DNA from: Luteimonas arsenica | GTDB taxonomy: Bacteria > Pseudomonadota > Gammaproteobacteria > Xanthomonadales > Xanthomonadaceae | Assembly (NCBI RefSeq): GCF_004352825.1 | Contig: NZ_SJRW01000002.1 | Location: forward strand, 124,001 to 188,000 | Direction of reading: 5' to 3' | Length of the DNA stretch: 64,000 bases | Shown here: in pieces, positions 11,151 to 30,516 of the stretch | Layout: each line of letters begins with the position of its first letter | Position numbering within the stretch: the stretch's first letter is position 1 | Notes under the pieces: model-generated | The model's input: the letters and a program-made list of their open reading frames with translations, nothing else | What the model was told of the DNA's origin: nothing | Databases searched by the model: none | Translations under genes and position numbers: made by a program

Positions 11151-11174
11151 CTTGCCACCTCGGGCCGACCCTAG
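11151..11174 (-). promoter_or_regulatory. Shared TAGG box D
   Basis: Read on the minus strand: TAGG, then nine bases GTCGGCCCG, then AGG TGGCAAG. It matches box A (26928-26949) at TAGGGTCGG, at CC, at AG and at TGGCAA. The nearest downstream minus-strand start is 11086, at the same distance (64-82 bases) seen for the other three boxes. It could also influence the divergent sctU. Confidence 0.55.
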
Positions 11175-11302
11175 ACCGGCGTCGGCTGTTCAGCCTGGAG
11201 TGGCCTGTCGGCCCCGCGGCCGCTGCGGCACCGCCGCCCGGTGGCTGCAGACCCTCCACACGGCCATGTTAGCGTGCCCGGGAGATTCAGGCGGAGCACC
11301 CG

Positions 11303-12367
11303 ATGGCCAAGGACCAGGGCGCCGACAAGACCGAGCAGCCGACCCAGAAGAAGCTGCGCGACGCGCGCAAGGACGCCAACGTCAGCAAGAGCAGGGAGCT
11401 GACCAGCACCGTGCTCGTGCTGGGCTGGCTGGTGGGCGGCTGGATGCTGCTCGGCTTCATGTGGGACCGCATGCGCGCGCTGTTCGACACCAGCCTCGCG
11501 TCCATGGGCCGGCCGTTCATGGAGGCCCTGCCCGAAGTCGGCATGGCGGCCTTCTGGACCCTGGTGGCGCTGAGCGTGCCGCTGCTGCTGCTGGCCGTGT
11601 TCCTCGGCCTGATCGTGGAGTTCCTCCAGGTCGGCCCGGTGGCGAGCATGAAGAAGCTCACCCCGGACATGTCGAAGATGAACCCGGTCGAGGGCATCAA
11701 GAAGATGTTCTCGATGGACAACCTGGTCGAACTGGTGAAGGCCTTCTTCAAGAGCGCCGGCCTGATCTTCATCGGCGGCTTCGTGCTCTACGGCATGCGC
11801 CACAGCCTGCTGATGCTGCCGCACGCGCCACCGGAGGCGATGGGCACGGCCATCTGGCACGGCCTGGTGCGCATCGGCATCTGGACCATCGGCGTGTTCT
11901 TCTTCGTTTCCGTGCTCGATGCCTGGTACCAGAAGTTCTCCTACCTCAAGCAGCTGCGCATGAGCCGCCGCGACATCAAGCAGGAGGTCAAGGAGAACGA
12001 GGGCGACCCCTACGTGAAGCAGCGGCGCAAGCAGTTGCACCAGGAGTGGTCGCAGCAGAACATGCTCAATGCCGTCCGGGGGTCGAATGTCGTCGTGACC
12101 AATCCAACCCACATCGCTGTCGCGCTGCAGTTCGAGGACGGGGTCACCGACCTGCCGGTGGTCGTCGCCAAGGGCGAGGGCGCCACCGCCGAGGAGATCA
12201 AGCGCGTGGCCGAGGAGTCCGGCGTGCCGGTGCTGCAGAACATCCCGCTGGCGCGCGGGCTGCACGAGAAGGTCGAGGTGGATGATTACATCGGCAGCGA
12301 GTTCTTCGACGCCGTGGCCGAGGTGCTGTTCTGGGCCGAGGGCATCCGCCGCGGCGACGACGGCTGA
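11303..12367 (+). CDS. sctU: T3SS export gate switch protein SctU
   Basis: 354 residues. Autoproteolytic substrate-switch component of the export gate in the inner membrane. Four hydrophobic helices occupy about 30-210; the cytoplasmic domain holds the self-cleavage motif NPTH at residues 267-270 (SNVVVTNPTHIAVALQF), with cleavage expected between N267 and P268. N-terminal MAKDQGADKTEQPTQKKLRDAR is the typical SctU/FlhB start. The linker EVKENEGDPYVKQRRKQLHQEW is also diagnostic. ATG 11303 follows GGCGGAG. It is convergent with sctT: the stop codons at 12365-12367 and 12368-12370 abut with no spacer, so no terminator separates the two transcripts. Confidence 0.96.
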   Translation: MAKDQGADKTEQPTQKKLRDARKDANVSKSRELTSTVLVLGWLVGGWMLLGFMWDRMRALFDTSLASMGRPFMEALPEVGMAAFWTLVALSVPLLLLAVFLGLIVEFLQVGPVASMKKLTPDMSKMNPVEGIKKMFSMDNLVELVKAFFKSAGLIFIGGFVLYGMRHSLLMLPHAPPEAMGTAIWHGLVRIGIWTIGVFFFVSVLDAWYQKFSYLKQLRMSRRDIKQEVKENEGDPYVKQRRKQLHQEWSQQNMLNAVRGSNVVVTNPTHIAVALQFEDGVTDLPVVVAKGEGATAEEIKRVAEESGVPVLQNIPLARGLHEKVEVDDYIGSEFFDAVAEVLFWAEGIRRGDDG

Positions 12368-13150
12368 TCAGCCCAGCGCCTGCCGTATCAGGCCCAGCAG
12401 GAAGCGGTTGCTGCCCAGGCGCTCGAGCAGGATCTCGACGTACACGCCGATCAGCAGCAGGATCAGCGCGGTCGCCAGCCAGGCCTTGATCGGCAGGGTC
12501 AACGCGAACACGTTGAGCTGCGGCGCGTAGCGGTTCACCAGGCCGAAGGACAGGTCGATGATGAGCAGGATCACCATCACCGGCGCCGCCATCACCAGCA
12601 CCGTGGTCATCATGAAATCGAACTGGCCCACGAACAGGTTCATGCCCACCGCGGGCAGGTCCGGGAAGTAGGACGTCACCGGCCACAGCAGGTAGCTGCC
12701 CATCAGCAGGTCGAGGAACACCAGGAAAGCGCCGCTGGCCATGAACAGCCAGGTGGCCAGCTGCGACAGGAATTCGCCGTGCAGGGTGACCTGGTGGCCC
12801 TGGATGGGGTCGAAGATCTGCGCCATCGACATGCCCACCTGGGTGTCGATGACGCTGCCCACCGCGGCCACGGCCCAGAACACGATGCCGAAGCAGAAGC
12901 CGATCGCGACCCCGATGAAGACTTCCTTGAGCACGATCAGCGGCCATTCGATCGCGCCCAGGTTCTCCATCGGCGGCAGCCCGACCAGGGCCATCGGCAG
13001 GATCATGATGCCGAGGCTGACCATGAAGCTGTTGCGCACCATCGGCGGCACCGTCTGCTGGGTCATCAGCGGCAGCATCAGGAAGGCGCCGATGACCCGC
13101 GGCAGCACCAGCGCCAGCGCCAGCAGCGGGTTGCCGAGGAAGTCGAACAC
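12368..13150 (-). CDS. sctT: T3SS export gate protein SctT
   Basis: 260 residues, six or more hydrophobic helices, FliR/SctT family member of the inner-membrane export gate. Diagnostic segments are LPRVIGAFLMLPLM near the N-terminus, the GIVFWAVAAVGSVIDTQVG loop and FGLVNRYAPQLNVFALTLPIKAW in the C-terminal half, with a final VEILLERLGS. Length agrees with the family (about 260). It is the last gene of the minus-strand sctQ-R-S-T run; sctS ends four bases upstream, indicating tight co-transcription. Confidence 0.95.
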   Translation of the reverse strand: MFDFLGNPLLALALVLPRVIGAFLMLPLMTQQTVPPMVRNSFMVSLGIMILPMALVGLPPMENLGAIEWPLIVLKEVFIGVAIGFCFGIVFWAVAAVGSVIDTQVGMSMAQIFDPIQGHQVTLHGEFLSQLATWLFMASGAFLVFLDLLMGSYLLWPVTSYFPDLPAVGMNLFVGQFDFMMTTVLVMAAPVMVILLIIDLSFGLVNRYAPQLNVFALTLPIKAWLATALILLLIGVYVEILLERLGSNRFLLGLIRQALG

Positions 13151-13153
13151 GGG

Positions 13154-13420
13154 CTACTGCCGCACCAGGCCCGGGAAATCGCGGAAGATGCGCTCGGTGT
13201 AGCCGTACAGCGAGCCGCCGATCAGCGCCGCGGTCACGAACAGCATCAGCACGATCGCCAGGAACTTGCAGGCATAGGCGAACGTCTGCTCCTGCAGCTG
13301 GGTGGCGGCCTGCAGGAAGGCGATCACCAGGCCGATCAGCGCGGCGGCCGCGATCGGCGGCCCCGACAGCAGCATGACCAGGAACAGGGCTTCCTTGGTG
13401 AGCTCGAGGACCTCGTTCAC
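13154..13420 (-). CDS. sctS: T3SS export gate protein SctS
   Basis: 88 residues with two transmembrane helices (about 13-38 and 50-72), the FliQ/SctS pattern. LVMLLSGPPIAAAALIGLVIAFLQAATQLQEQT contains the conserved GLxxAxxQAxTQxQEQT core. Forms the export gate with SctR and SctT. Only one base separates its start from the stop of sctR and three bases from sctT. Confidence 0.95.
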   Translation of the reverse strand: MNEVLELTKEALFLVMLLSGPPIAAAALIGLVIAFLQAATQLQEQTFAYACKFLAIVLMLFVTAALIGGSLYGYTERIFRDFPGLVRQ

Positions 13421-13421
13421 C

Positions 13422-14483
13422 TCATCCGCCCCCGTAGGTCAGGACGAGGCCGTGGACCAGCTTGGCCCAGCCGTCGACCAGCACGAACAGCAGCAGCTTG
13501 AACGGCAGCGACACCGTGGTCGGCGAGAGCATCATCATGCCCAGCGCCAGCAGGATGTTGGCCACCACCAGGTCGATGATCAGGAACGGCAGGAAGATCA
13601 GGAAGCCGATCTGGAAGGCGGTGGTGAGTTCGCTGACGGTGAATGCCGGGATCACCACGATGAAGTCGTCGACGTCGAGGTCGTCGCGGTGGTCTGCGGG
13701 CAGCAGGCGCTGCGCGCTCCTCAGGAAGAAGGCGCGTTCCTTGTCGTTGGAGTGGTTGATCAGGAAGTTGCGCAGCGGTTCCTTGCCGGCCTCGAAGATG
13801 CCGAGCATGCGCACGGCGTCCATCGGCGCGCCGGCCGCGGGCGTCGGTGGCGCGGGGCTGCCAGTGGCGGTGATCACGATCGGGCCCTCGTCGCGGCCGC
13901 CGGTCGTCGCGGCGTCGCCTTCATCCGCGGGCGGTTCGACGCCGTTGCTGACGTTCGCGAACTGCGGTGCGCGCTGCGGACCCGGACCGGCCGGATCGGC
14001 GGCCTCGCCACCGCTCGCCCCCGCGGACAGGGCCTCGGCCTCGGCGCGCAGCGCGTCGGCCGCGGCAGGGCTCGCGGGTGGCGGTTCGTCGACGGCCGCT
14101 CCGGGGGCATCCTCCGCTGGGGTCTCGTCCGGTGCGGTGGGTGCGGCGGCGCGGCGCGCCGCGATACGCTCGGCGCGCGCGACCGCGCGCGCCTCGATCT
14201 GGGCCTGGATCTGCGGCGGCGGTGGCTGTCCCGCCATGTAGGCGCTGACCGCCGCGTGCGTGTCCAGGATCACCGGCGACATCACGTAGGCCGACAGCAC
14301 GATCGCCAGGCCGTTGATGACCACGTTCGGCGGCACCTGCTGCAGGCCCAGCGCGTTGCGCAGCAGGCTCAGCACCACCACGATCTTGGTGAACGAGGTC
14401 ACCATCACCGCCACGAACGGCGCCAGCGCGATGAAGACGACGGTGACGAGGACGACCGCCGGCGAGAAGGTGGTGAAGTCCAT
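13422..14483 (-). CDS. sctR: T3SS export gate protein SctR with a large Ala/Pro-rich insertion
   Basis: 353 residues against about 215 in ordinary SctR. The N-terminal 84 residues (FTKIVVVLSLLRNALGLQQVPPN) and the C-terminal 130 residues (FVVIPAFTVSELTTAFQIGF-type block, then ANILLALGMMMLSPTTVSLPFK and LLFVLVDGWAKLV) are standard SctR with all four helices. Between them, residues about 86-220 are a low-complexity Ala/Pro/Glu-rich segment (PPPPQIQAQIEARAVARAERI, then PAEDAPGAAVDEPPPASP) with no family resemblance. It falls in the periplasmic loop between helix 2 and helix 3. The frame is open throughout and composition is like the locus, so this is an insertion, not a frameshift. sctQ ends four bases upstream. 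Confidence 0.93.
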   Translation of the reverse strand: MDFTTFSPAVVLVTVVFIALAPFVAVMVTSFTKIVVVLSLLRNALGLQQVPPNVVINGLAIVLSAYVMSPVILDTHAAVSAYMAGQPPPPQIQAQIEARAVARAERIAARRAAAPTAPDETPAEDAPGAAVDEPPPASPAAADALRAEAEALSAGASGGEAADPAGPGPQRAPQFANVSNGVEPPADEGDAATTGGRDEGPIVITATGSPAPPTPAAGAPMDAVRMLGIFEAGKEPLRNFLINHSNDKERAFFLRSAQRLLPADHRDDLDVDDFIVVIPAFTVSELTTAFQIGFLIFLPFLIIDLVVANILLALGMMMLSPTTVSLPFKLLLFVLVDGWAKLVHGLVLTYGGG

Positions 14484-14486
14484 CCA

Positions 14487-14774
14487 TCAGCTCCAGGACA
14501 GCAGGCGCACGCCCAGGGTGTCGCCGACGGCGACCAGCTCGCCGCGACCGGCGACGCGGCCGTTGGCGCGGATGGTGACGTTGCTGCCCTCCAGCGCGGC
14601 CGCCAGCGGGAACACGTAGCCCGGCTGCAGGTCGGCGATCTCGCCCACGCTCATTTCCGTGCGGCCGAGTTCGAACTCGACATGGACCGGCAGGCTGCGC
14701 GCGGGGTCGGGCGCGGGCGGGGGTGGGTGGGGGGATTCGGGCGTGGCGCCGCCGTCGGGTTCCTGTTCGCTCAT
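14487..14774 (-). CDS. Internal translation product SctQ-C (SpoA domain alone)
   Basis: Within sctQ an in-frame ATG at 14774 (MSEQEPDGGATPESP) is preceded on the minus strand by GAGGA with seven bases CTCCCCC before the ATG, a textbook ribosome site that has no reason to be there otherwise. The product would be 95 residues: a Pro-rich linker and the complete C-terminal SpoA domain. Independent translation of the C-terminal part of SctQ is established in Yersinia YscQ, Shigella Spa33 and Salmonella SsaQ, where it joins full-length SctQ in the sorting platform. That this happens here is inferred from the site. Confidence 0.7.
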   Translation of the reverse strand: MSEQEPDGGATPESPHPPPPAPDPARSLPVHVEFELGRTEMSVGEIADLQPGYVFPLAAALEGSNVTIRANGRVAGRGELVAVGDTLGVRLLSWS

Positions 14775-15641
14775 GGGGGAGTCCTCGTTGTGGACAGGGG
14801 TGTTCAAGGGAGTGCCGTTCACGGCCCAGCCGCCGGCCACCGGGGCCAGCGGCCAGTCGCGCCCGGCGGCCCGGGCAATGCAGGCGGGCGGCTGCGAGCG
14901 GTGGCCGGCGACGATCACGTCGCCGGGGCGCAGCGCGCGCCAGTCGCGCTGGGCCAGCGGGATGGGGAACAGCAGCGAGACCTGCACCGGCCAGTCGCGC
15001 CAGCGCCCGGCGTCGGGAAGCGGGTCGTCCTCGTGCAGGGGTTCGGCGCGCGCGGCCAGGCGCTGCAGCCAGGTGGCCGGGAGGCGCAGCCGTGCGTGCG
15101 TGGCCGCGGGCGGGGGCGTGGCGGCGGGATCGTGGCCGGCCTCGGCTGGCGCATCCTCGATGCGCACCGCGAGCCACAGCGAGGGCGCGTCGTCCGCACC
15201 CGCCGCCTCGGCCTCGTTGTCGAGCACCGGCAGCAGCGACGCGCCCAGCCATTCGCTCAGCCGGCGCAGGGTGGTTTCCTGCGCCAGGCTCCAGGCAAGC
15301 ACGCGCGAGCGCCCGCCGTGGTCGCTCCAGCGCAGGCGCGCCTCGTCGTCGCCGGCCATGGCGGGCCCGTCGACGTGCAGCGCCAGCCGCGTGCCTTCGG
15401 CATCGATGGCGAAGGCCGCCGACGGCGCGGCGGCGGGCGACGCCTGCACCGCGGCGCCGTCGCCCAGCAGCCACCAGCGCGGCAACGAGAAGAACTGGCG
15501 CAGCGCCTCGCAGGCCGGCGCGTCGACCTCGGGCAGCAGCCCCCGCAGCGGACGCGCCGCTGGAACGGCCACGCTCGACGCCTCGGCCACGCGCGCGCGC
15601 CGGGGCTTGTCTGCGCGCGCGCCGCGCTCAGCCGTGGCCAA
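14487..15641 (-). CDS. sctQ: T3SS cytoplasmic sorting-platform protein SctQ
   Basis: 384 residues in the longest form. The C-terminal 75 residues are a SpoA domain (PVHVEFELGRTEMSVGEIADLQPGYVFPL, then RVAGRGELVAVGDTLGVRL), and a degenerate first SpoA-like domain lies around residues 205-280 (VQVSLLFPIPLAQRDWRALRPGDVIV). SctQ forms pods of the sorting platform with SctK, SctL and SctN. The start is uncertain: TTG 15641 overlaps the end of the response regulator by 14 bases, and in-frame GTG codons occur about 17 and 22 residues later. First gene of the sctQ-R-S-T run. It contains an internal start for a separate C-terminal product (see 14487-14774). Confidence 0.9.
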   Translation of the reverse strand: MATAERGARADKPRRARVAEASSVAVPAARPLRGLLPEVDAPACEALRQFFSLPRWWLLGDGAAVQASPAAAPSAAFAIDAEGTRLALHVDGPAMAGDDEARLRWSDHGGRSRVLAWSLAQETTLRRLSEWLGASLLPVLDNEAEAAGADDAPSLWLAVRIEDAPAEAGHDPAATPPPAATHARLRLPATWLQRLAARAEPLHEDDPLPDAGRWRDWPVQVSLLFPIPLAQRDWRALRPGDVIVAGHRSQPPACIARAAGRDWPLAPVAGGWAVNGTPLNTPVHNEDSPMSEQEPDGGATPESPHPPPPAPDPARSLPVHVEFELGRTEMSVGEIADLQPGYVFPLAAALEGSNVTIRANGRVAGRGELVAVGDTLGVRLLSWS

Positions 15642-16233
15642 GCGCCACCTTCATCAGCTCCGGCAGGGAGCGCACGCCCAGCTTGCTCATCATGTTGGCC
15701 CTGTGCAATTCAACGGTCTTGATGCTGATGCCGAGGATGTCGGCAATGATCTTGTTCGGCTTGCTCGCCACCACCAGGTCCAGCACCTGGCGTTCGCGCG
15801 GGCTCAGCTTCGCCAGCAGCTCGTTGGCCATGCCGCCGGTGCCGCCGCGGTTGCCGGCCCGGGCCAGGGCGGTGCGCAGCGCATCGACCAGTGCCTCCTC
15901 CGAGAACGGCTTCTCGAGGAAGTTCGACGCGCCCTTGCGCATGGCCTCGACCGCCAGCGGTACGTCGCCGTGCGCGGTCACGAACACCAGCGGCAGCTTG
16001 ATGCCGCGGCGCCCGAGCTCATCCTGCAGCTGCAGCCCGCTCATCTCCGGCATGCGGATGTCCGATACCAGGCATTCGCTGGCGTCGCCGTGGCGATGGC
16101 CGGCGTAAGCCTCCAGGAAGGCCGGGCCGGAGTCGAAGCTTTCGACCTCGAAGCCGGACGTTTCCAGCAGCCAGGCGGTCGAATCGCGGAATCCGTCGTT
16201 GTCGTCCACCAGGTAGACGCGTGTCACCGTCAT
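15628..16233 (-). CDS. FixJ-like response regulator of the T3SS locus
   Basis: 201 residues. Receiver domain at about 5-120 with phospho-acceptor D58 (CLVSDIRMPEMSG), acidic pair DDND at 10-13 and Lys in FLEKPF near residue 108. C-terminal LuxR/NarL-type helix-turn-helix (LSPRERQVLDLVVASKPNKIIADILGISIKTVELHRANMMSKLGVRS). The FLEKPF motif and the domain combination are those of the FixJ/TodT group. Its ATG overlaps the kinase stop by four bases (ATGA), and sctQ begins inside its 3' end, so kinase, regulator and sctQ-R-S-T form one transcription unit. Probably controls transcription of the secretion locus. Confidence 0.9.
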   Translation of the reverse strand: MTVTRVYLVDDNDGFRDSTAWLLETSGFEVESFDSGPAFLEAYAGHRHGDASECLVSDIRMPEMSGLQLQDELGRRGIKLPLVFVTAHGDVPLAVEAMRKGASNFLEKPFSEEALVDALRTALARAGNRGGTGGMANELLAKLSPRERQVLDLVVASKPNKIIADILGISIKTVELHRANMMSKLGVRSLPELMKVALGHG

Positions 16234-17336
16234 GTCCCATTCCCCCCGTCTTCCGAGGGCGGCAGGGTGAAGCCGAACACGCTGCCGCCGCCTTCGCGCG
16301 GCTCGAAGAACAGCCGCCCCTCGTGGTACTCGATGATCGAGCGGCAGATCGCCAGACCGATGCCCAGGCCGTCGCTCTTGGTGGTGAAGAAAGGCGAGAA
16401 CAGCTGCTTGCCCTGCTCCTCGCTCAGGCCCTCGCCGCGGTCGCAGACGCGGACCTCGACTTCGCCGTCCAGGTTCACCCGGCCCTCGATGCGCAGGCCG
16501 CGCTGCGCCGCAGGCACCTCGCGCATGGCTTCGATCGCGTTCTTGACCAGGTTGAGCAGCACCTGTTCGACCATCACCCGGTCGGCATGCACTGCCGGCA
16601 GGCCGGGGGCGAGCGCGAGCTCGATGCGCAGCTGCTGGCGCTCGGCCTCCAGGCGCAGCAGCTCGACCACGGTGTGGGTGATCTCGGCCACGTCGTGGGC
16701 GTCGCGCCGCGGCTCGCGCGCGCGGACGAATTCGCGGACGCGGGAGATCACCGCCGCGGCGTGCTCGGCCTGGGTGCGCGCGGCGACCAGGGCGCGCTCG
16801 ACCTGCACCGGGCCGCCGGCCTGGTCGACCAGGCGCAGGCTGCCGTTGAGGTAGTTCACGATCGCCGAAAGCGGCTGGTTGAGCTCGTGGGCCAGGGTCG
16901 CCGCCATCTCGCCCACCGACATCAGGCGGGAAGTGAACAGCAGTTTCTCCTGCTGGCTCTTGTGCGAATCCAGGGCTTCGATGCGGGCGCTTATGTCGAC
17001 CGCGGTCAGCAGGTCGAGCGCGGTGCCTTCGACCTCGGCCCGGCCCCAGTGCAGGGCGTACCAGCGGTTGCTGTGCGGCGCGTTGACCTCGCGCGGGGCG
17101 GTGGCGTCGCCGTCGTCGCCGTCGCCGCCATCGAGCGAGGCCAGCAGGCGCGTGCGGTCGTCATGGCCGTCGAGACCCGCGAAGGCTTCGCGATAGGCGT
17201 CGTTGGCGGCGGCCAGGCTGCCACCGCGGGAGAATGCGGCGCAGGGGAAGGGAATGGCCTCGAGCAGGGCGGTCACGGCGTCGCTGTCGCCCCCGGCCGC
17301 GCGTCGGCGGCCACCGGATCCGCGCGCGGGGGTCAC
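16230..17336 (-). CDS. Soluble PAS-domain histidine kinase of the T3SS locus
   Basis: 368 residues from GTG 17336, which has GGAG eight bases upstream; the open frame continues to 17741 but that part lies opposite the FliO-like gene and is spurious. Residues about 20-130 look like a PAS sensor (LLEAIPFPCAAFSRGGSLAAANDAYREAF). H-box phospho-acceptor H150 (MAATLAHELNQPLSAIVNYL) is of the HPK4/FixL type. The HATPase domain has the N box (LLNLVKNAIEAM), G1 (DRGEGLS) and G2 (SDGLGIGLAI). No membrane segment, so an intracellular signal (redox, ligand or protein contact) is likely. ATGA overlap with the response regulator gene marks them as cognate partners. Confidence 0.88.
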   Translation of the reverse strand: MTPARGSGGRRRAAGGDSDAVTALLEAIPFPCAAFSRGGSLAAANDAYREAFAGLDGHDDRTRLLASLDGGDGDDGDATAPREVNAPHSNRWYALHWGRAEVEGTALDLLTAVDISARIEALDSHKSQQEKLLFTSRLMSVGEMAATLAHELNQPLSAIVNYLNGSLRLVDQAGGPVQVERALVAARTQAEHAAAVISRVREFVRAREPRRDAHDVAEITHTVVELLRLEAERQQLRIELALAPGLPAVHADRVMVEQVLLNLVKNAIEAMREVPAAQRGLRIEGRVNLDGEVEVRVCDRGEGLSEEQGKQLFSPFFTTKSDGLGIGLAICRSIIEYHEGRLFFEPREGGGSVFGFTLPPSEDGGNGT

Positions 17337-17426
17337 GCAGCCGTCTCCGCCGGGTGCCTGGCCACCGGCCTGCGGTAGGCTGCGCGCGCGCCTTCCGCGC
17401 GTTCCCCGAGGCCGAAGCTTCCTGCC

Positions 17427-17816
17427 ATGTCCAAGCGAACCCTGACTGCCATCACCGCCATCCTGCTCCTCACAAGTGGCACCGCCGTGTCGGCGGAGGC
17501 CGTAACCGATGCTCCAGCGGCGTCGTCCCTTGCCGGGGAACTGATGGCCATCGTGTTGCCTCTGGCCTTCATCATTGCCGGACTGGTGGTCGTCCTGCGC
17601 CTGGTCCGCAAGCGCTATGGACTGACCGGCCCGGATGCTCCGCTGTCGATCCTGCAGATCCTTCCGCTCGGTCCGCGTGAACGCCTGGTGCTGGTGAAGT
17701 CGCGGTCGGGTCGCGTATTCACCGTGGGCGTCGCCGCTCAAACCGTGACGTTCATCACGGATCTGGAGGCGGAGGATGTTGCAAGCCCGGGTGAACCCGA
17801 GGGTGGTGCCGGGTAA
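17427..17816 (+). CDS. FliO-like small membrane protein in T3SS locus
   Basis: 129 residues. Possible N-terminal signal segment (1-23), then one transmembrane helix at about 38-60 (LMAIVLPLAFIIAGLVVVLRL), a basic stretch RKRYG and a short cytoplasmic beta domain with LQILPLGPRERLVLVKSRSGRVFTVGV. The last motif, [GP]LGPRERLVLV followed by a small strand, is the hallmark of FliO, the assembly chaperone for the FliP/SctR ring. FliO is normally a flagellar gene and is absent from most injectisome loci. It is divergent from the kinase gene and 271 bases upstream of sctV, which appears to have its own promoter. Confidence 0.72.
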   Translation: MSKRTLTAITAILLLTSGTAVSAEAVTDAPAASSLAGELMAIVLPLAFIIAGLVVVLRLVRKRYGLTGPDAPLSILQILPLGPRERLVLVKSRSGRVFTVGVAAQTVTFITDLEAEDVASPGEPEGGAG

Positions 17817-17941
17817 ACAGCCAACGCGGTCACGTTTCCCTGTTACCGCAAAATTTCCGTTTCACTACAGACGTTTGCCTCCACCTCCCCAGACCCTGTC
17901 CGGCGCTGGAGAGCGACCGCGGACTCAGAAATTTCCCACGA

Positions 17942-17970
17942 TTGCTCTTGCAATGAGACTATCGTAATTT
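17942..17970 (+). promoter_or_regulatory. Candidate sigma-70 promoter of the sctV operon with overlapping inverted repeat
   Basis: TTGCTC at 17942-17947, 17 bases, then TAATTT at 17965-17970, in a stretch of clearly higher AT content than the surroundings (17817-18087). ATTGC-TCTT-GCAAT at 17941-17954 is a perfect 5-bp inverted repeat overlapping the -35 hexamer, a possible operator. The leader to the sctV ATG would be about 110 bases. No PIP box (TTCGB-N15-TTCGB) of the Xanthomonas hrp type was found here. Confidence 0.5.
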
Positions 17971-18087
17971 GCCATAAAGTGACGCATGAGGTCAGCGATC
18001 GATGCGGCAAGCAGATGACGATACAGGGGGTGTGGCAGGAGGTGGCGGGCATACCGCCGCTCGCCCCTGCGTGGGAGACATGACTGC

Positions 18088-22208: not shown

Positions 22209-22224
22209 CCGGGGGGAACACTCC

Positions 22225-22995
22225 ATGAAGTTCCTCCGATGGTCGCGGCCGCTGCGCGCGACGCTGTTCGCGTTCGCAGCCGCCGCGCTGCTCGCCGCCT
22301 GCGGCGGCAAGCCCCTGTACAGCCAGCTCGACGAGGGCCAGGCCAACCAGATCATGGGCGTGCTCATCGCCGCGGGTATCGACGCCGACAAGAACCCGTC
22401 GCCGTCGAAGGTGGGCTGGGAGGTGCGGGTGGCGACGTCCGACTTCCCGTATGCCATGCAGGTGCTCGGCGCGCACGGCCTGCCGCGCGCGCAGTTCGCC
22501 AACACCTGTGACGTGTTCAAGAAGGAAGGCTTCGCGTCCTCGTCCACCGAGGAGCGCGGCCGCGAGCAGTGCAGCCTGCAGCAGGAACTGGCCGACACCC
22601 TGACCCGCTTCCCGGGCGTGGTCGACGCGCGCGTGCACGTCACCCTGGCCGAGCGCGATCCGCTGGGCGGGTCCAGCCAGGACTCCTCGGCGTCGGTCGC
22701 GATCTTCGAGGCGCCGGGTGCCAGCGCGCGCGATCGCGAGGCCGACATCAAGCTCCTGATCAAGGACGCGGTGCCCGGCCTGGTCGATCTCAACAAGGTC
22801 ACGGTGAAGTTCGCAGAGGCGCCGGCGATGCCGGCGCGCAAGCCGCAGGGCCCGGCCCTGTCGGCGATCAGCCCGACTGCGCTGGCGATCGCCGCCGGCG
22901 TGGTGCTGCTGCTCGGCCTGCTGGTCGCGTTCCGTGGCCGCCTGCGCAACGCCGCGCAGCCGGCGAAGGCCTCGGACCAGGTCTGGAACGGCTGA
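22225..22995 (+). CDS. sctJ: T3SS inner-membrane ring lipoprotein SctJ
   Basis: 256 residues. Lipoprotein signal with lipobox LLAAC (Cys26), then two ring-building domains: KPLYSQLDEGQANQIMGVLIAAGI and the second starting about residue 90, with ELADTLTRFPGVVDARVHVTL characteristic of YscJ/PrgK/FliF-like rings. A C-terminal transmembrane helix lies at about 213-235 (TALAIAAGVVLLLGLLVAF). Forms the 24-fold ring with SctD. GGGG upstream of ATG 22225. Confidence 0.96.
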   Translation: MKFLRWSRPLRATLFAFAAAALLAACGGKPLYSQLDEGQANQIMGVLIAAGIDADKNPSPSKVGWEVRVATSDFPYAMQVLGAHGLPRAQFANTCDVFKKEGFASSSTEERGREQCSLQQELADTLTRFPGVVDARVHVTLAERDPLGGSSQDSSASVAIFEAPGASARDREADIKLLIKDAVPGLVDLNKVTVKFAEAPAMPARKPQGPALSAISPTALAIAAGVVLLLGLLVAFRGRLRNAAQPAKASDQVWNG

Positions 22996-22998
22996 GGC

Positions 22999-23649
22999 AT
23001 GTCGCTGCGGGCGCTGCTGGCGGAGGTCGATCCGGGGTGGCTTGAGGACGCAGGCGCCCCGCTGGACGAGGATCTTGTCCGGCGTGCCCGCGACAGCGCG
23101 CTCGGCCGCCGCCTGCTGGCCGGCTGGCTGGCAGGCGGTCCCGCCGCCTCGCTGCTGGCACCGGATCCGGTGCGCGGCCCCGACGCGACGCGTGCGCGCT
23201 GGACGCGCCCGCGCCTGCAGGCGCTGTGCCGCGACATCGGCATCCTCGCGCACGCGCCGCCGATCCGTGCCGAGGTCCGGCGCGAACCGGTGCGGCGGCT
23301 GAAGGCGGCCCTGGGCAACAGCTACCTGCTGGCCCTGGACCGCGGCGTCTGGGAGGGCCGCGTGCCGCCCGATCGCCTGCAGGCGCTGTCGGCCGACTTC
23401 GGCGGCGCGCTCTATGCCGCGCTGTCCACCGACGATCCGACGCCGCTGTTCGAACTCTTCGACCGCCAGGGCCGCGCCGAGCTCAAGGCCTGGGCGCGGC
23501 AACGCGACCCCGCGCTGGCGGACTGGTGCGACCTGCTGCATCCGCCGGCCGCGGACGCAGCCACCTGGCTGCCCGAGAAGCCGGTGCTTCGCGTCTACAC
23601 CCATCACGAATCGCGCGCCGCACAGGGGCGCATGGAATCCCCTGCATGA
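22999..23649 (+). CDS. sctK: T3SS sorting-platform protein SctK
   Basis: 216 residues, soluble, helical, Arg/Leu/Ala-rich. Identified mainly by its place between sctJ and sctL with overlaps typical of sctK, plus YscK-like features: an early W (VDPGWLED), LQALCRDIGILAHAPPIRAEV-type segment, and a compact middle helix KAALGNSYLLALDRG. SctK links the pods of SctQ to the SctD cytoplasmic domain. Starts three bases after the sctJ stop and overlaps sctL by four bases (ATGA). Confidence 0.75.
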   Translation: MSLRALLAEVDPGWLEDAGAPLDEDLVRRARDSALGRRLLAGWLAGGPAASLLAPDPVRGPDATRARWTRPRLQALCRDIGILAHAPPIRAEVRREPVRRLKAALGNSYLLALDRGVWEGRVPPDRLQALSADFGGALYAALSTDDPTPLFELFDRQGRAELKAWARQRDPALADWCDLLHPPAADAATWLPEKPVLRVYTHHESRAAQGRMESPA

Positions 23650-24335
23650 ACGTCGAATCCGCCACGTCCGCCGCCGCGACCGCCGACCGCTCCCCCGGAG
23701 CCGGCGGCGTGGCCGTGTTCGAGCAGCGGCGTTTCATGCGTTCGCTCGGCGCCAGCGTGGTTCCCGCTGCGGCCTGGGCGCAGCTGGCCGAGCTCGACGC
23801 CCTGCTTGAGCGCGTCAACGACCTGTACGGCGAAGCCAGCGCGGAGATCGCGCAGGCCCGCGAGCAGGGCCATGCCGAAGGCTTCGCCGAGGGCATCGCC
23901 GCGGCCAAGCTGCAGATGACCGAACAGCTGGCCTCGCTCAACGAACGCCGCGCACGCGTGCTGGGCGAGGCGTCGGGCCGCATCACCGAACTGGCCTGCG
24001 CGATCGTCGCGCGCATCGCCCCGGGCTTCGACGCGCGCAGCGTGGTGCCGCCGCTGGTGATGCAGGCGGTGGAAGCGGCGCAGGCCGAGCAGTTCCTGCT
24101 TATCCGCGTGCATCCCAGCGTGCGTGAAAGCGTCAGCGCCGGTCTGGGCGCGGTGCGCCAGGCGCACCCGGCGGTCGGTGTGATCGAGCTGGTCGATGAT
24201 CCCAGCCTCGATCCCACCAGCTGCGTGGTGGTCTCCGAGGCCGGCGAGGTCCGCGCCGGCGTGGCTCAGCAGATCGAGGCGATCCGCACGGCGCTGGCCG
24301 GCAGCGCCGCCGGCCACGCGGAGAGCCCGGCTTGA
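23646..24335 (+). CDS. sctL: T3SS ATPase stator protein SctL
   Basis: 229 residues. An Ala/Gly-rich N-terminus, a coiled-coil (about 50-110, ALLERVNDLYGEASAEIAQAREQGHAEGFAEGIAAAK) and a C-terminal FliH/SctL domain (ITELACAIVARIAPGFDARSVV, then FLLIRVHPSVRESV and ELVDDPSLDPTSCVVVSEAGEV). The GxxxG-like AREQGHAEGFAEGIAAA run is typical of the FliH/SctL/YscL family. Connects SctN to SctQ. Overlaps sctK and sctN by four bases each, so translation is coupled. Confidence 0.93.
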   Translation: MNVESATSAAATADRSPGAGGVAVFEQRRFMRSLGASVVPAAAWAQLAELDALLERVNDLYGEASAEIAQAREQGHAEGFAEGIAAAKLQMTEQLASLNERRARVLGEASGRITELACAIVARIAPGFDARSVVPPLVMQAVEAAQAEQFLLIRVHPSVRESVSAGLGAVRQAHPAVGVIELVDDPSLDPTSCVVVSEAGEVRAGVAQQIEAIRTALAGSAAGHAESPA

Positions 24336-25681
24336 GCGCCAGCGCGCCTTTCGCCGACGCGGCCGGCACGCCTGATCCGCTGCTGGATGCGCTGGCGCGG
24401 GTGCAGTCGATCGAGCGTGTGGGCCGCGTCGCCGAGGCCTACGGCACCCTGATCCGCGCCACCGGCCTGAAGGCCTCGATCGGCGAACTGTGCGAACTGC
24501 GCAATCCGCGCGGCGAAGGCGATGCCTCGTTCCGGCTGTCGGCCGAAGTGGTGGGCGTGTCCAAGCAGCTCACCCTGCTCACGCCGCTGGGTGCGCTCGA
24601 CGGCGTGTCCGCCACCACCGAGGTCTACGCCAGCGGCCGCCAGGCGGCGGTGCGCGTGGGCGCCGGCCTGCTCGGCCGCATCCTCGACGCCCACGGCGAG
24701 CCCATCGACGACCTCGGCCCGGTCGGTCCCACGGTCGATGCGCCGATCTACGCCGCCTCGCCCAATCCGCTGGCGCGAAGCCTGATCGAACGCCCGTTCT
24801 CCACCGGCGTGCGCGCCATCGACACCACCATGACCGCCGGCGAGGGCCAGCGCATCGGCATCTTCGCCGTCGCCGGCGGCGGCAAGAGCACGCTGCTGGG
24901 CATGCTCGCGCGCGGTGGCGACGCCGAGGTCAACGTCATCGTCCTGGTCGGCGAGCGCGGCCGCGAGGTCAACGAGTTCATCCACGACAACCTCGGGCCC
25001 GAGGGCCTGGCGAGGTCGGTGATCGTGGTCGCGACCTCCGACCGCCCGGCGCTGGAGCGCAGCCGTGCGGCCTGGGTCGGCACCGCGATCGCCGAGCATT
25101 TCCGCGACCAGGGCAAGCGCGTGCTGCTGCTGGTCGATTCGGTGACCCGCTTCGCGCGCGCGCTGCGCGACGTCGGCCTCGCGGTGGGCGAACCGCCGGC
25201 GCGGCGCGGCTTCCCGCCTTCGGTGTTCAGCGCGCTGCCGCGGCTGTTCGAGCGCGCGGGCAACAACGACAAGGGCTCGATCACCGCCTTCTACACCGTG
25301 CTCGCCGAGGACGAGGACGGCGGCGACCCGATCGTCGAAGAAGTGCGTTCGATCCTCGACGGCCACATCGTGCTTTCGCGCAAGCTCGCCGCCGCCTACC
25401 ACTACCCGGCCATCGACGTGCTGGTCAGCCTCAGCCGCACCATGCCGCGCGTGGTCGACCAGGCCCAGCTGCGCGCCGCCGGACAGCTGCGCAAGCTGCT
25501 GGCCAAGTACCAGGACATCGAGCTGCTGATCCAGCTGGGCGAGTACAAGCGCGGCACCGATCCCGATGCCGACGCCGCGATCGAGAAGATCGGCGCGATC
25601 CGCAAGCTGCTGCAGCAGTCCGCGCACGAGCTGGTGCCGTTCGAGCAGTCGGCCGACGCGATCCGGAAGCTGTTCCCGTGA
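24332..25681 (+). CDS. sctN: T3SS ATPase SctN
   Basis: 449 residues. Hexameric ATPase that detaches chaperones and unfolds substrates. Walker A is AGGGKST at 181-187 (K185), in IGIFAVAGGGKSTLLGMLAR; the Walker B-like strand is GKRVLLLVDSVTRFARALRDVGLAVGEPP, followed by the family signature PPSVFSALPRLFERAG-type block. The end KYQDIELLIQLGEYKRGTDPDADAAI is also conserved. Start TTG 24332 overlaps the sctL stop (TTGA); no ATG gives a complete N-terminus. Confidence 0.96.
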   Translation: MSASAPFADAAGTPDPLLDALARVQSIERVGRVAEAYGTLIRATGLKASIGELCELRNPRGEGDASFRLSAEVVGVSKQLTLLTPLGALDGVSATTEVYASGRQAAVRVGAGLLGRILDAHGEPIDDLGPVGPTVDAPIYAASPNPLARSLIERPFSTGVRAIDTTMTAGEGQRIGIFAVAGGGKSTLLGMLARGGDAEVNVIVLVGERGREVNEFIHDNLGPEGLARSVIVVATSDRPALERSRAAWVGTAIAEHFRDQGKRVLLLVDSVTRFARALRDVGLAVGEPPARRGFPPSVFSALPRLFERAGNNDKGSITAFYTVLAEDEDGGDPIVEEVRSILDGHIVLSRKLAAAYHYPAIDVLVSLSRTMPRVVDQAQLRAAGQLRKLLAKYQDIELLIQLGEYKRGTDPDADAAIEKIGAIRKLLQQSAHELVPFEQSADAIRKLFP

Positions 25682-26160
25682 AGCGCTATCCCCTGCAGAC
25701 CCTGGTCAAGCTGCGCGAACACCGCACCGAGGCCGCGCGCCAGAAAGTGCTGGAAAAGCAGCGCGAGGCCCAGGCCTGCCGCGACGCCTGCCTCAAGGTC
25801 GAGGGTGAGATCATCGCCCTGGACTTCGAGCAGAAGCAGCAGCGCGCGCGCCTGCTCGACGCACCGCCGCCGGGCGTGCCCTGGCCCAGCGCCCTGGCCC
25901 AGCGCGAGGCGCACATCGGGCTGCTGGGCGAGCAGGCCGAGGCCGCGCGCCAGCGCCTGTTCAAGGCGCAGGAGGTCCTGCGCGCCGCCGAGGTCGCGGT
26001 GGCCGAGGCACGCACCGCGTTCTTCCGCGCCAAGGGGCGGCTGGACGCACTCGAGAAGCGTCGCGACGTATGGCGCGGCGAACAGTCCGCGCTCGAAGCG
26101 CGCCAGGAAGAGGGCGCGGCCGAGGATCTGCTGCAGGCCCGCCACCTGGCGGGCACCTGA
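25678..26160 (+). CDS. sctO: T3SS central stalk protein SctO
   Basis: 160 residues, almost wholly a long antiparallel coiled-coil (LVKLREHRTEAARQKVLEKQ near the start, a Pro-rich turn DAPPPGVPWPSALAQ at the hairpin, and a return helix LFKAQEVLRAAEVAVAEART). FliJ/YscO proteins have exactly this hairpin and sit between SctN and SctV. Starts with GTG 25678, overlapping the sctN stop by four bases (GTGA). Confidence 0.9.
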   Translation: MKRYPLQTLVKLREHRTEAARQKVLEKQREAQACRDACLKVEGEIIALDFEQKQQRARLLDAPPPGVPWPSALAQREAHIGLLGEQAEAARQRLFKAQEVLRAAEVAVAEARTAFFRAKGRLDALEKRRDVWRGEQSALEARQEEGAAEDLLQARHLAGT

Positions 26161-26181
26161 GGCAGACAAGGAGACGCAAAG

Positions 26182-26883
26182 ATGTCGATCGAACGCAGCA
26201 GCAGCCAGAGTTCCACCGCCGAAGCCGCGCGCAGCCCGGAGGGCACGCAGGAGGCGCGCGAGCGCCCGCCGGCGAACCGGGAACAGACCGACCGCTTCCG
26301 CGACGCGCTCGACAGCGCGCGCCAGGGCGTGCAGTCGCAGCCGCAGCCGAAGGAACAGGGCGAGGCCAAGGGCGCTATCGAGCATGGCGAAGGCGAGGCC
26401 GCGGAACTGCGCCAGACCGCGACCGACGACGCGGTGCATCGCGCCAGCGACCGCGGTGAGCGCGGCGATGGCGGCGGCCACGGCCACGACGGCGCCGAAG
26501 GCGAGGCGAAGCTGCTCGACCCGGCCCTGCTCTGGCAGGCGCAGCACGCGCTGCGCGGCGACGCACCGGCGGCGATGCCGGCGACGGTGGGCGCCAGCAA
26601 TGCGGTGGTCGAGCTGATCGAGCGCCATGTCCGCCAGCTGGCGGTGGCGGGCGGGGCCACCGATCCGCAGGGCGATGGCCAGGTGCTGCTGCGCATGGCC
26701 GACGCCACCCTGCCCGGCACCGACCTCCTGCTCAGCCGCGAGGGCGATGGCTGGGTGCTGCGCGCCGACGTGCGTTCGCGCGCCAGCTACGACGCCATTC
26801 GCGACGCCGCGCCGGAGCTGTCCCGGCGTTTCGCCGAACGCGAACTCGGGACGCTGCGCGTGGATCCGCATTTCCACGGATGA
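26182..26883 (+). CDS. sctP: T3SS needle-length and switch regulator SctP
   Basis: 233 residues. The first 110 are disordered and rich in Glu, Gln, Ser and Gly (SSSQSSTAEAARSPEGTQEA), as in secreted ruler proteins. The C-terminal domain, about 130-225, is compact (NAVVELIERHVRQLAV, then VLLRMADATLPGTDLLLSREGDGWVLRADVRSR) and resembles the T3S4/HpaP-type switch domain that contacts SctU. Shorter than YscP, similar to HpaP-type members. Ribosome site AAGGAGA upstream. Last core gene of the sctV run. Confidence 0.8.
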   Translation: MSIERSSSQSSTAEAARSPEGTQEARERPPANREQTDRFRDALDSARQGVQSQPQPKEQGEAKGAIEHGEGEAAELRQTATDDAVHRASDRGERGDGGGHGHDGAEGEAKLLDPALLWQAQHALRGDAPAAMPATVGASNAVVELIERHVRQLAVAGGATDPQGDGQVLLRMADATLPGTDLLLSREGDGWVLRADVRSRASYDAIRDAAPELSRRFAERELGTLRVDPHFHG

Positions 26884-26927
26884 ATGCGACGGCGGTCGCG
26901 TCGTGCACGTGCACGGCGGCCGCGACT

Positions 26928-26949
26928 TAGGGTCGGACCTAGCTGGCAA
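26928..26949 (+). promoter_or_regulatory. Shared TAGG box A
   Basis: TAGG (26928-26931), nine bases GTCGGACCT, then AGC TGGCAA. It lies in the gap after sctP, about 68 bases upstream of the transglycosylase/LysM/M23 gene. Nearly identical to box D on the other side of the locus. The inner part TAGGGTCGGACCTA is itself an imperfect palindrome, compatible with a dimeric LuxR/FixJ-type regulator. Confidence 0.6.
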
Positions 26950-26975
26950 CGTGGCGACGGCATGCCTGTAATGGC

Positions 26976-27017: not shown

Positions 27018-28667
27018 ATGGTCGGACCCGTCACCAGCAACGCCGGCGCGCAGAACGTCGCCGGCGACCACACCAGCCCTTCGGGCTTCGACTACAACCG
27101 GATCCAGGGCGTGCAGGGCAATGCCAATGTCACCCCCGCCTTCATCCGCGAAGTCGAGGCCATGGCGCAGCGCCTGGGCACGCAGCCCGAGTACCTGATG
27201 GCGGTGATGAGTTTCGAGACCGGCGGCAGCTTCAGCCCCGGCGTGCGCAACGGCGCCGGCAGCGGCGCCACCGGGTTGATCCAGTTCATGCCCAACACCG
27301 CGCGCGAGCTCGGCACCTCCACCGACGCCCTGGCGCGGATGAGCGCGGTCGACCAGCTCCAGTACGTGGAGCGCTACTTCAACAACCGCTCCGACCCGGG
27401 TGACCTCAACACCCTCGAGGGCGTCTACACCACGGTGCTCTACGGCAGCCCGCGGCCGGATCCGAACTCCACGCTGTTCAGCCAGGGCACCGCGGCCTAC
27501 CGCATGAATGCGCCGCTCGACCTCAACGGCGACGGCCGCATCACCGCCGGCGAGGCGACCTCCTTCGTCCGCCAGCGCATCGACGGCGAGGCGCCGCCGC
27601 CGGTCGACCGGCCCGCGCCAGGCCCGGGCGGCAACGATCCGGACCGGCCGACGCCCTCGCCCTCGCCTTCGGGCACGGTCACGGTGCGCGGCGGCGACAC
27701 GCTCTCCGGGATCGCGGCGCGCAACAACGTGTCGCTCGGCGACCTGCTTGCGGCCAACCCGCAGATCCGCAACCCGAACCTGATCTATCCCGGCCAGACC
27801 GTGCACCTGCCGGGCGGTGGCGGCGGCGAGGTCACCGTGCGCAGCGGCGACACCCTGTCGGGCATCGCGGCGGGCAATGGCGTGTCGCTGGGCGCGCTGC
27901 TCGGTGCCAATCCGCAGATCCGCAACCCCGACCTGATCCATCCGGGACAGACCGTGAAGCTGCCGGGCGGCGCCGGTGCCACCCACGATGTCACGGTGCG
28001 CAGCGGCGACACGCTGTCGGGCATCGCCGCGCGCAACGGCGTCGCGCTCGACGCGCTGATCGCGGCCAACCCGCAGATATCGAACCCGAATCTGATCCAT
28101 CCGGGCCAGACCGTCCACGTGCCCGGTGGCGGTGGTGGCGGCCAGGCGCCGTCACCCGCACCGGCGCCGGGTCCTGCCCCCGCACCGCCGCCGTCGGGCG
28201 AGGTGCCCACGTATGCGCCGTACACCGTCTACAGCACCGGCCACCAGCCCGCGATCTCGGTCTCGCATCCCGACCAGATGCAGCCGCACCACGACTACCA
28301 GACCAAGGTCCGCGACGGCCAGACGCTGGAGGTGCGCGACATCGTCCTGCACCGCAACGGACAGTCGCAAACCAGCCAGGCGATCCCCGCGCCGATCTCG
28401 GGCACCGTGATCCAGGCCGGTCCGAACGGCAACGCCGGCAACTCGGTGATCCTGCGCGGCGACCAGGGCCAGCTGGTCTACATCTTCCACATGTCGAGCA
28501 TCGATGTGCGCCAGGGCCAGCGGGTGGAGTACGGCCAGGACCTGGGCAACCAGGGCTCCACCGGCAACTCCACCGGCCCGCACGTGCACATCGAAGCTTC
28601 GGGTGCCACCATCGATCGATGGGTACACGACCTGCTCGACGGCCGCTTCGACGGCGTCCGCCGCTAG
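27018..28667 (+). CDS. Fusion of lytic transglycosylase, three LysM repeats and M23-like peptidase
   Basis: 549 residues. Residues about 25-150 are a soluble lytic transglycosylase-like domain: catalytic Glu67 in MAVMSFETGGSF, then GATGLIQFMPNTA at 83-95. An EF-hand-like DLNGDGRI is at 158-165. Three LysM repeats follow at about 221-265, 272-315 and 325-370 (each GDTLSGIA...NPQI.NP.LI.PGQTV), joined by Gly/Pro linkers. The end (about 430-549) is LytM/M23-like with H491 in FHMSSIDV and H522/H524 in TGPHVHIEASG; the first zinc motif HxxxD is not clear, so peptidase activity is uncertain. There is no Sec signal peptide, and the N-terminus is Ser/Asn/Thr-rich. ATG 27018 has AGGAG seven bases upstream. 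Presumed role: opening peptidoglycan for the injectisome, or acting as a secreted wall-degrading substrate. Confidence 0.88.
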   Translation: MVGPVTSNAGAQNVAGDHTSPSGFDYNRIQGVQGNANVTPAFIREVEAMAQRLGTQPEYLMAVMSFETGGSFSPGVRNGAGSGATGLIQFMPNTARELGTSTDALARMSAVDQLQYVERYFNNRSDPGDLNTLEGVYTTVLYGSPRPDPNSTLFSQGTAAYRMNAPLDLNGDGRITAGEATSFVRQRIDGEAPPPVDRPAPGPGGNDPDRPTPSPSPSGTVTVRGGDTLSGIAARNNVSLGDLLAANPQIRNPNLIYPGQTVHLPGGGGGEVTVRSGDTLSGIAAGNGVSLGALLGANPQIRNPDLIHPGQTVKLPGGAGATHDVTVRSGDTLSGIAARNGVALDALIAANPQISNPNLIHPGQTVHVPGGGGGGQAPSPAPAPGPAPAPPPSGEVPTYAPYTVYSTGHQPAISVSHPDQMQPHHDYQTKVRDGQTLEVRDIVLHRNGQSQTSQAIPAPISGTVIQAGPNGNAGNSVILRGDQGQLVYIFHMSSIDVRQGQRVEYGQDLGNQGSTGNSTGPHVHIEASGATIDRWVHDLLDGRFDGVRR

Positions 28668-29849: not shown

Positions 29850-29874
29850 TAGGTCGGGTACGCACTAGCTTGCC
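29850..29874 (+). promoter_or_regulatory. Shared TAGG box B
   Basis: TAGG (29850-29853), 13 bases, then AGC TTGCC (29867-29874). The downstream half is identical to box C (AGCTTGCC). It lies 81 bases upstream of the glycine-zipper gene at 29956. The longer spacer makes it the least certain of the four boxes. Confidence 0.45.
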
Positions 29875-29955
29875 GCGGTTGCGGGGGCGCGGAAACTGCG
29901 AACTGCGCCCGGAGTCCACCGGGCCCAACCAACCCACTACTGAGAGGACACGGAC

Positions 29956-30165
29956 ATGGGTAGTCAGATCGGTTCGATCGTCGGCGGTCTCGTCGGCTCC
30001 TTCTTCGGCGGCCCCGCCGGCGCGGCCATCGGCCAGCAGATCGGCTCCTGGCTCGGCGGCGTCATCGGCGGCGAGAGCTCGGGTGATTCCGGCGGCTTCG
30101 ACTTCGGCTCGCTGTTCGGCAACGCCTACTCCGGCGGCTTCGACCTCGGCTTCGGGGACGCCTGA
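29956..30165 (+). CDS. Small glycine-zipper protein in T3SS locus
   Basis: 69 residues. Residues 5-40 are a glycine zipper (GSIVGGLVGSFFGGPAGAAIGQ, then GSWLGGVIGG), two hairpin-forming hydrophobic stretches that can insert in membranes; the tail is Gly/Asp/Phe-rich (GGFDFGSLFGNAYSGGFDLG). No signal peptide, so export by Sec is unlikely. Ribosome site GAGAGGA before ATG. Together with the upstream box this fits a small type III secreted pore-forming or harpin-like protein, but that is inference; a membrane scaffold role is equally open. Followed after three bases by the next small gene. Confidence 0.65.
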   Translation: MGSQIGSIVGGLVGSFFGGPAGAAIGQQIGSWLGGVIGGESSGDSGGFDFGSLFGNAYSGGFDLGFGDA

Positions 30166-30168
30166 CGC

Positions 30169-30471
30169 ATGTCCATGGACGGCGCCCCGCCCAGAAGCCG
30201 CGAGGAGCTGGTCGAGCGCCTCGCCGACCTGCGCCTGCAGGGCATCCTCGACACGCATGAAGAGGAACGCCTGCTCGAGCAGTTCGACGCCATGCTCCGC
30301 GATGTCAACGATGAGAAGGCGCGGCTGGAGCCGGAGTACAACCGCCGGCTTCGCGACGACGGTCTGGAGTCCGCCAACGAATGGCTGCGCGAGGCCGCGA
30401 CCGAACTCGGACGCCGCCACGGCGAGGCCACCCGGGCGATCACCGACCAGTTGCGGGTGGTGACCGGCTGA
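30169..30471 (+). CDS. Small charged helical protein, possible chaperone
   Basis: 100 residues (MSMDGAPPRSREELVERLADLR). Very rich in Glu, Arg and Leu and entirely helical, with a strong coiled-coil (EEERLLEQFDAMLRDVNDEKARLEPEYNRRL). Starts three bases after the glycine-zipper gene and is surely co-transcribed. Small acidic helical proteins next to a hydrophobic secreted protein are often its chaperone or partner; no family match is evident. A second ATG at 30175 could be the start. Confidence 0.55.
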   Translation: MSMDGAPPRSREELVERLADLRLQGILDTHEEERLLEQFDAMLRDVNDEKARLEPEYNRRLRDDGLESANEWLREAATELGRRHGEATRAITDQLRVVTG

Positions 30472-30494
30472 GGCCGGGCCGGATGGCCCTTCGC

Positions 30495-30516
30495 TAGGGG
30501 TTTCCCCCAGCTTGCC
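30495..30516 (+). promoter_or_regulatory. Shared TAGG box C
   Basis: TAGG (30495-30498), ten bases, then AGC TTGCC (30509-30516). CTAGGGG-TTT-CCCCCAG inside it is an almost perfect inverted repeat (6 of 7 bp). It lies 73 bases upstream of ATG 30590. Confidence 0.55.

Follow-up and report, generated by a model that had tools for sequence, protein, structure and literature searches.

What is the role of a short sequence that recurs before accessory genes of a type III secretion system (T3SS) locus, and which protein reads it? The question is raised by a stretch of 64,000 nucleotides from Luteimonas arsenica (RefSeq assembly GCF_004352825.1, contig NZ_SJRW01000002.1, positions 124,001 to 188,000), here called the window, in which an initial annotation had noticed four such boxes and attributed them to a FixJ-like regulator encoded in the locus. 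Reports of T3SSs in biocontrol and environmental Lysobacteraceae go back years, and their consulted parts present these systems without a known effector set or a role for their two-component system (PMC4657364, PMC10384520). We propose that the boxes are copies of one operator that serves an effector and accessory-gene regulon and whose probable reader, acting from a class II position, is the locus-encoded FixJ-like regulator; judging from the sequences, we give this reading a probability of nearly 0.8. The observations that carry it are the motif itself, where it lies, how it is conserved, its confinement to genomes with a T3SS and the kinds of genes that follow it.

The shared element is a 16-bp inverted repeat

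When the sequence was re-read, the four strings were indeed found at the positions given for them, 64-82 nt upstream of the ATGs to which they had been assigned. The consensus drawn from them, TAGG followed by a variable gap and TGGCAA or TTGCC, nevertheless described the wrong motif. Ungapped alignment from the -35 side, together with the orthologous promoters of relatives, showed that the true element is a 16-bp inverted repeat, CTAGGG-N4-CCC(T/C/G)AG, behind which come N-T and a poor -35 sequence. TGGCAA and TTGCC belong to the -35 region adjoining the box, and the gap had appeared variable because registers had been mixed. The four boxes are real, the one now called C being a tandem pair and D having a 5-bp spacer, and a fifth site in the window had been missed.

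Taken literally, the loose pattern would fail the random-frequency test that had been proposed for it on its own genome, since a genome-wide scan gave eight matches as against 20 in the reversed control. Four of these eight are the annotated sites, two are identical 22-mers on a small contig and one lies in the promoter of a lipase-like gene. In the window, TAGGN{9,13}AGSTKGC matched four times compared with a mean of 0.19 in 100 shuffles, none of which reached four, but this is no independent test, since the pattern was derived from the same four sites. Own-genome enrichment being absent, the loose consensus was dropped. An ungapped motif anchored on the -35, GGGT-N5-C-N-AG(C/G)-T(G/T)GC, was set aside as well. 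It had eight exact matches in the own genome, five of them of promoter type, and 64 matches at one mismatch as compared with 23 in the control; the exact matches L015, L016 and L021 had no convincing downstream gene. The rarity of the loose pattern relative to its reversed control is what might be expected if the four GC-rich strings resembled one another by chance. That explanation is already refuted by the conservation and genome distribution described below and by the ranking of the sites with a held-out matrix, and we give it practically no weight.

This matrix was trained on 70 distinct sites, taken from relatives alone (off-locus sites and M91 promoters), and applied to all window positions on both strands. 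It ranked box A (11174, minus strand) first, B (26927, plus) second, F (34069, minus) third, C2 (29853, plus) fourth and D (30495, plus) twelfth, several of the remaining top ranks being opposite strands of the same palindromes. Box A (11159-11174, minus; CTAGGGTCGGCCCGAG, that is, CTAGGG-TCGG-CCCGAG) is a single operator upstream of g11086 (10766-11086, minus), which encodes 106 aa without a Pfam or NCBIfam match. Box B (26927-26942, plus; TTAGGGTCGGACCTAG, in the register TTAGGG-TCGG-ACCTAG) is likewise single and precedes g27018 (27018-28667, plus), whose product combines an SLT transglycosylase, three LysM and an M23 peptidase domain. Box C is a tandem pair made up of a degenerate upstream member, C1 (29837-29852, plus; CCGGGGCGGCCCCTAG; rank 15), and a proximal member, C2 (29853-29868, plus; GTCGGGTACGCACTAG); the TAGG at 29850 from which the site had first been read is the right half of C1. 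The upstream box is intact in all three relatives in which the gene behind the pair, g29956, occurs (left half CTAGGG, ATAGGG or TTAGGG). This gene (29956-30165, plus) encodes a glycine-zipper-like protein of 69 aa and is closely followed by g30169 (30169-30471). Box D (30494-30510, plus; CTAGGG-GTTTC-CCCCAG) has a 5-bp spacer, its rank of 12 having been obtained in the 4-bp register, and lies before g30590 (30590-31192, plus; 200 aa, no family match), after which comes g31270 (31270-31629). Box F (34054-34069, minus; CTGGGGTTTGCCCGAG) is the site that had been missed; downstream of it lies g32416 (32416-33963, minus; 515 aa, no family match).

The box is conserved before accessory genes

The locus was fetched, around sctD, from 20 of the 39 other T3SS-positive genomes, and a promoter was counted as boxed if a site with at most two mismatches occurred within 300 nt upstream; sctL was left out of the genes counted. 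The box stands before the orthologues of g11086 in 13 of 13 relatives, of g27018 in 4/4, of g29956 in 3/3 and of g30590 in 17/18, these being the four genes named in the initial annotation. It also precedes g32416 in 8/14 relatives and g31270 in 4/14. The intergenic region that g11086 shares with sctU carries a box in 16/16 relatives, and in 32/34 of the named loci that include this region, which were found with the regulator as query. The T at +17, which was not used in picking the box, is invariant in the 32 named loci, and the upstream flanks mostly hold less than 0.5 bit.

The secretion machinery presents a different picture. No box was found before sctT, sctR, sctQ, the kinase gene, g17427, sctV, sctI, sctJ or sctK (0/20 relatives each), nor before sctN, sctO or sctP (0/19 each). 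The earlier view that the box marks the accessory set is supported by the conservation at orthologous promoters, by its restriction to T3SS-bearing genomes and by its presence before unlinked genes of families that serve as T3SS effectors in other systems, but it is not strictly confined to non-core genes, since it precedes the needle-like g21420 in 6/20 relatives and sctD in 2/20. A window site that the matrix ranked seventh (17801-17786, minus) falls inside the 3' end of the open reading frame (ORF) 17427-17816; as it is not conserved before the kinase gene or sctV (0/20 each), it was taken as chance.

The box accompanies the T3SS across genomes

CTAGGGN4CCCNAG occurs in all 40 T3SS-positive genomes sampled from the family (333 strand-matches, mean 8.3) and in 22 of 257 T3SS-negative genomes (24 matches, mean 0.09); the sampled genomes are related, so that a Fisher test on these counts overstates the evidence. 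Within the three genera that hold both kinds, the box was present in 33/33 T3SS-positive and 1/12 T3SS-negative genomes. The element is present where the T3SS is and nearly absent where it is not, as befits an operator of a T3SS regulon. At no more than one mismatch it was found in 29 of the 46 named T3SS loci, Rudaea and Dyella included, and in none of 32 loci of more distant FixJ relatives in which no sct gene was seen. Dyella choica has a perfect CTAGGG-N4-CCCTAG (L241:8213) in the interval from the kinase gene to the sctV side, a place that is free of the box in Luteimonas; the Dyella regulon may extend to core genes.

Unlinked genes behind the box resemble effectors

Among the box places listed, 75 regions were fetched, 70 from T3SS-positive and five from T3SS-negative genomes. 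Outside the T3SS locus, the genes behind the box encode lipase-like proteins, M91 peptidases (the Pfam family named Effector protein), a proline-rich DNA/RNA endonuclease, DUF1521, DUF4474 and DUF4329 proteins and LysM proteins. The Pfam check covered 19 of the 79 ORFs lying behind a box, and some of these 79 are surely not genes. The lipase-like family has a GHSLGG-type motif and is Mbeg1-like, scoring just above the Pfam cut-off in P0001 and L123 and below it in L170. NleD, a T3SS effector, belongs to M91. A housekeeping product, pyrophosphatase, also appears among the downstream ORFs (L142); that genome's M91 gene begins at the opposite flank of this site, and a palindromic box can serve either side.

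Converse tests, in which genes were picked by protein family without using the box, gave the same result. M91 proteins occur in 38/40 T3SS-positive and 15/257 T3SS-negative genomes. A box with at most two mismatches lies upstream in 28/30 M91 loci, each of the 30 coming from a separate T3SS-positive genome. In the remaining two, of which one belongs to the own genome, visual inspection shows tandem boxes with three mismatches. DUF1521 was found in eight genomes, all T3SS-positive, and is boxed in seven of them.

The L. arsenica genome itself (G000) has one gene of each of these two kinds. Its M91 gene (C2:485251-485790; L288) scores above the Pfam cut-off for Peptidase_M91 (PF14891; E 1.7e-48) and follows degenerate tandem boxes, and its DUF1521 gene (C2:1170863-1171342; L313) follows tandem boxes with three mismatches each. 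Four lipase-like paralogues with GHSLGG or GHSQGG are scattered over the same genome (C1:62073-62903, C1:67908-68474, C1:936751-937746 and C2:869501-870274), each with a box 54-69 nt before the ATG. The best per-position matrix p values of these boxes range from 7.8e-6 to 6.3e-5; three have at most two mismatches and the fourth has three, against a background of 86 such boxes in 7441 tiles of 115 nt from the relatives' T3SS regions, true sites included.

The box thus appears to be a cis element shared by T3SS-linked genes and by unlinked genes whose domain families suggest that they encode effectors. If this is correct, the own genome adds six or more unlinked candidates (four lipase-like, one M91, one DUF1521) to the five promoters of the window, and a scan for the box yields dozens of candidate unlinked cargo proteins, namely lipase-like hydrolases, M91 metallopeptidases, self-cleaving DUF1521 proteins, proline-rich nucleases and LysM proteins. 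It seems likely that the T3SS effector arsenal of non-pathogenic Luteimonas, Lysobacter and relatives is defined by a single box with an orphan FixJ-type two-component system as its reader, the machine being mostly free of boxes and the cargo boxed. Such a box would link the effector set with the two-component system of the locus and would offer a simple DNA rule for finding effectors across genera.

The box sits at a nearly fixed distance from a predicted -10

Across 86 strand-sites that lie outside the T3SS locus, TANNNT was found at an offset of 23 nt past the box 11 times and at 24 nt eight times, and no other offset up to 60 had it more than once. With 19/86 at 23-24, the box holds a fixed place relative to the promoter, as would an operator of a T3SS regulon. 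Among the 55 strand-sites with the first ATG of an ORF of at least 100 aa in range, 43 have it 50-89 nt downstream. The box therefore appears to end 23-24 bp before a sigma70-type -10 and to abut or overlap a -35 that is poor in sequence. In the window, the predicted -10 elements are TAAAGT (11130-11135, minus), 23 nt past box A and matching the offset peak; TGTAAT (26967-26972, plus), 24 nt past B; a weak GAAACT (29892-29897, plus), 23 nt past C2; CAGACT (30535-30540, plus), 24 nt past D and TAGACT or TACACT in relatives; and TAGCGT (34024-34029, minus), 24 nt past F. If the -10 lies at -12 to -7, an offset of 23-24 puts the centre of the box near -44, touching the -35, which is the position of a class II activator.

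The proposed mechanism is one in which the histidine kinase encoded next to the FixJ-like regulator phosphorylates it, a dimer of the phosphorylated protein binds the 16-bp inverted repeat, and the bound dimer recruits RNA polymerase and thereby activates transcription. The targets would be the promoters of the T3SS accessory genes and of unlinked genes mostly resembling T3SS effectors, whose products would be secreted. Two boxes stand end to end at g29956, at many M91 genes and at several DUF1521 genes, and such tandem boxes presumably take a second dimer. Alternatively, the box may be the operator of a repressor, a dimer at the -35 silencing the effector promoters until a signal arrives; its end at about -36 is a place where bound protein could block the polymerase. 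The position is, however, that of classical class II activation, the adjoining -35 sequences are poor, and FixJ-type regulators are mainly activators. We consider repression very improbable.

The FixJ-like regulator as the proposed reader

The regulator gene (15628-16233, minus) and that of its partner histidine kinase (16230-17372, minus; start codon not settled) are flanked by the T3SS core genes sctU to sctP (11303-26883, both strands). The regulator combines Response_reg and GerE domains and the kinase HisKA and HATPase_c; receiver, GerE helix-turn-helix and partner kinase together are what the NarL/FixJ family calls for, and this is the only transcription factor recognized in the T3SS locus. 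Its closest solved relatives are the StyR-type 1yio (E 8.6e-44) and FixJ 5xso (E 4.2e-43), and it falls under the cut-off of the NCBIfam FixJ equivalog NF006900 (213.5 versus 255 bits). The closest named match is from Luteimonas colneyensis (95%).

Each of the 20 relatives whose locus was fetched around sctD has the regulator in its T3SS region, with 77-82% identity. Five T3SS-positive genomes gave matches of 77-82%, as compared with only 31-41% in the nine T3SS-negative genomes tested. It is also found in 46/46 named T3SS loci, a figure that is weak on its own since these loci were found with the regulator as query. In all 46, Rudaea and Dyella included, the recognition-helix stretch KTVELHR(A/S)NMM is identical. 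The initial attribution of the boxes to this protein accordingly looks likely, given its co-occurrence with the T3SS and the lack of a close relative in the nine T3SS-negative genomes. That it reads the box is our best inference.

Members of the NarL/FixJ family bind short inverted repeats. A box that is a genuine T3SS-linked operator could nonetheless be read by another regulator, encoded elsewhere and travelling with the T3SS, in which case the FixJ-like protein might control, for example, the core operons; the absence of the box from the kinase-regulator operon and from most core genes would fit such an arrangement. The locus, however, already contains a co-occurring candidate of the appropriate family, and although no systematic search for other co-occurring DNA-binding proteins was made, we regard a different reader as unlikely.

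Several findings weigh against the proposed reading. The kinase-regulator operon has no box in the relatives (0/20), a single site with two mismatches standing before fixJ in one of them (G072, 1/20), so that autoregulation is unsupported. KTVELHR(A/S)NMM also occurs in a FixJ relative on a 5-kb contig on which no sct gene was seen (L248). A strict TANNNT at 23-24 is missing from 67 of the 86 off-locus strand-sites, some of them being chance occurrences within coding sequence or the strand of a palindrome that is not in use. Two loci, L233 and L236, have the T3SS and the regulator but no box before g11086. Lastly, several sites of the own genome are degenerate, and the palindrome with up to two mismatches matched there 51 times as compared with 55 in the reversed control. 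Only sites with promoter context were retained from the list of 51, and the protein-family searches later served to check them. The strict form CTAGGGN4CCCNAG has only one exact match in this genome, whose boxes are more degenerate than most. As a separate observation, L233 and L236 are two Lysobacter, each with a regulator of 70-71% identity, and possibly represent a case of a changed operator.

Relation to known systems

Shared promoter elements that mark T3SS effectors and allow their genome-wide prediction include the PIP box (HrpX), the hrp box (HrpL), the tts box (TtsI) and the hrpII box (HrpB). Their readers are AraC-type regulators, an extracytoplasmic function (ECF) sigma factor or a response regulator of another kind, and their sequences are unrelated. 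Unlike them, the box described here is an inverted repeat that appears to stand beside a sigma70-type -10. The closest parallel, as far as the consulted part of the source goes, is SsrB of Salmonella pathogenicity island 2 (SPI-2), a two-component regulator of the NarL/FixJ class in a T3SS, which has an inverted repeat with a 4-bp spacer, as does the box here (PMC2837388). The SsrB palindrome, of 18 bp in a 7-4-7 arrangement, is described there as conserved across species and as linking the SPI-2 locus with many unlinked effector genes (PMC2837388). The architecture of the present box, 16 bp in a 6-4-6 arrangement, is akin to it, while the half-site sequence differs and binding is proposed. 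Two further differences stand out against the same account: the -10 follows at a nearly constant distance here, whereas SsrB has no strict spacing to the start site, and SsrB boxes also drive SPI-2 core operons, whereas most core genes here are without a box (PMC2837388). The regulator itself resembles FixJ and StyR, its nearest solved relatives, more than it does SsrB, yet its neighbourhood is that of a T3SS.

A T3SS cluster of the same kind, with sct genes and an internal histidine kinase and response regulator, is known from Lysobacter (PMC4657364, PMC10384520, PMC13163355). In the consulted passages of these papers the function of the two-component pair is reported as not elucidated, no effector genes related to known ones are reported in 2015 and four neighbours are predicted by software in 2026, and neither the box nor a dispersed regulon is described. 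Nor was a description of the box found among the open-licence papers listed in the searches, the CTAGGG in PMC6821963 being part of a primer. As to the secretin, the consulted parts differ, one paper stating that Lysobacter T3SS clusters are without it and another placing it with the type II secretion system. No secretin was found in the window; three occur elsewhere in the own genome, and none has a box with at most two mismatches in the 1500 bases before the domain.

Further sites and sequences

Two sites were dropped from the candidates, L011 (CTAGGGTGGCCCCAG), which sits among other genes and lacks the -35 part, and L120 (C2:1260868), which has no start codon with an ORF of at least 80 aa in range. 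The two identical matches of the loose pattern (C3:1358-1379 and C3:16051-16072, on a contig of 20.7 kb) represent a repeat, with no tRNA found nearby. In five genomes of Luteimonas type (L141, L148, L156, L171 and L185), a near-perfect box lies about 119-153 nt upstream of a conserved gene for an 89-aa lipoprotein-like protein with an Lpp-like coiled coil. Within the window, the coding sequence of g32416 contains tandem repeats of a unit rich in His, Gly and Asn (33540-33810).

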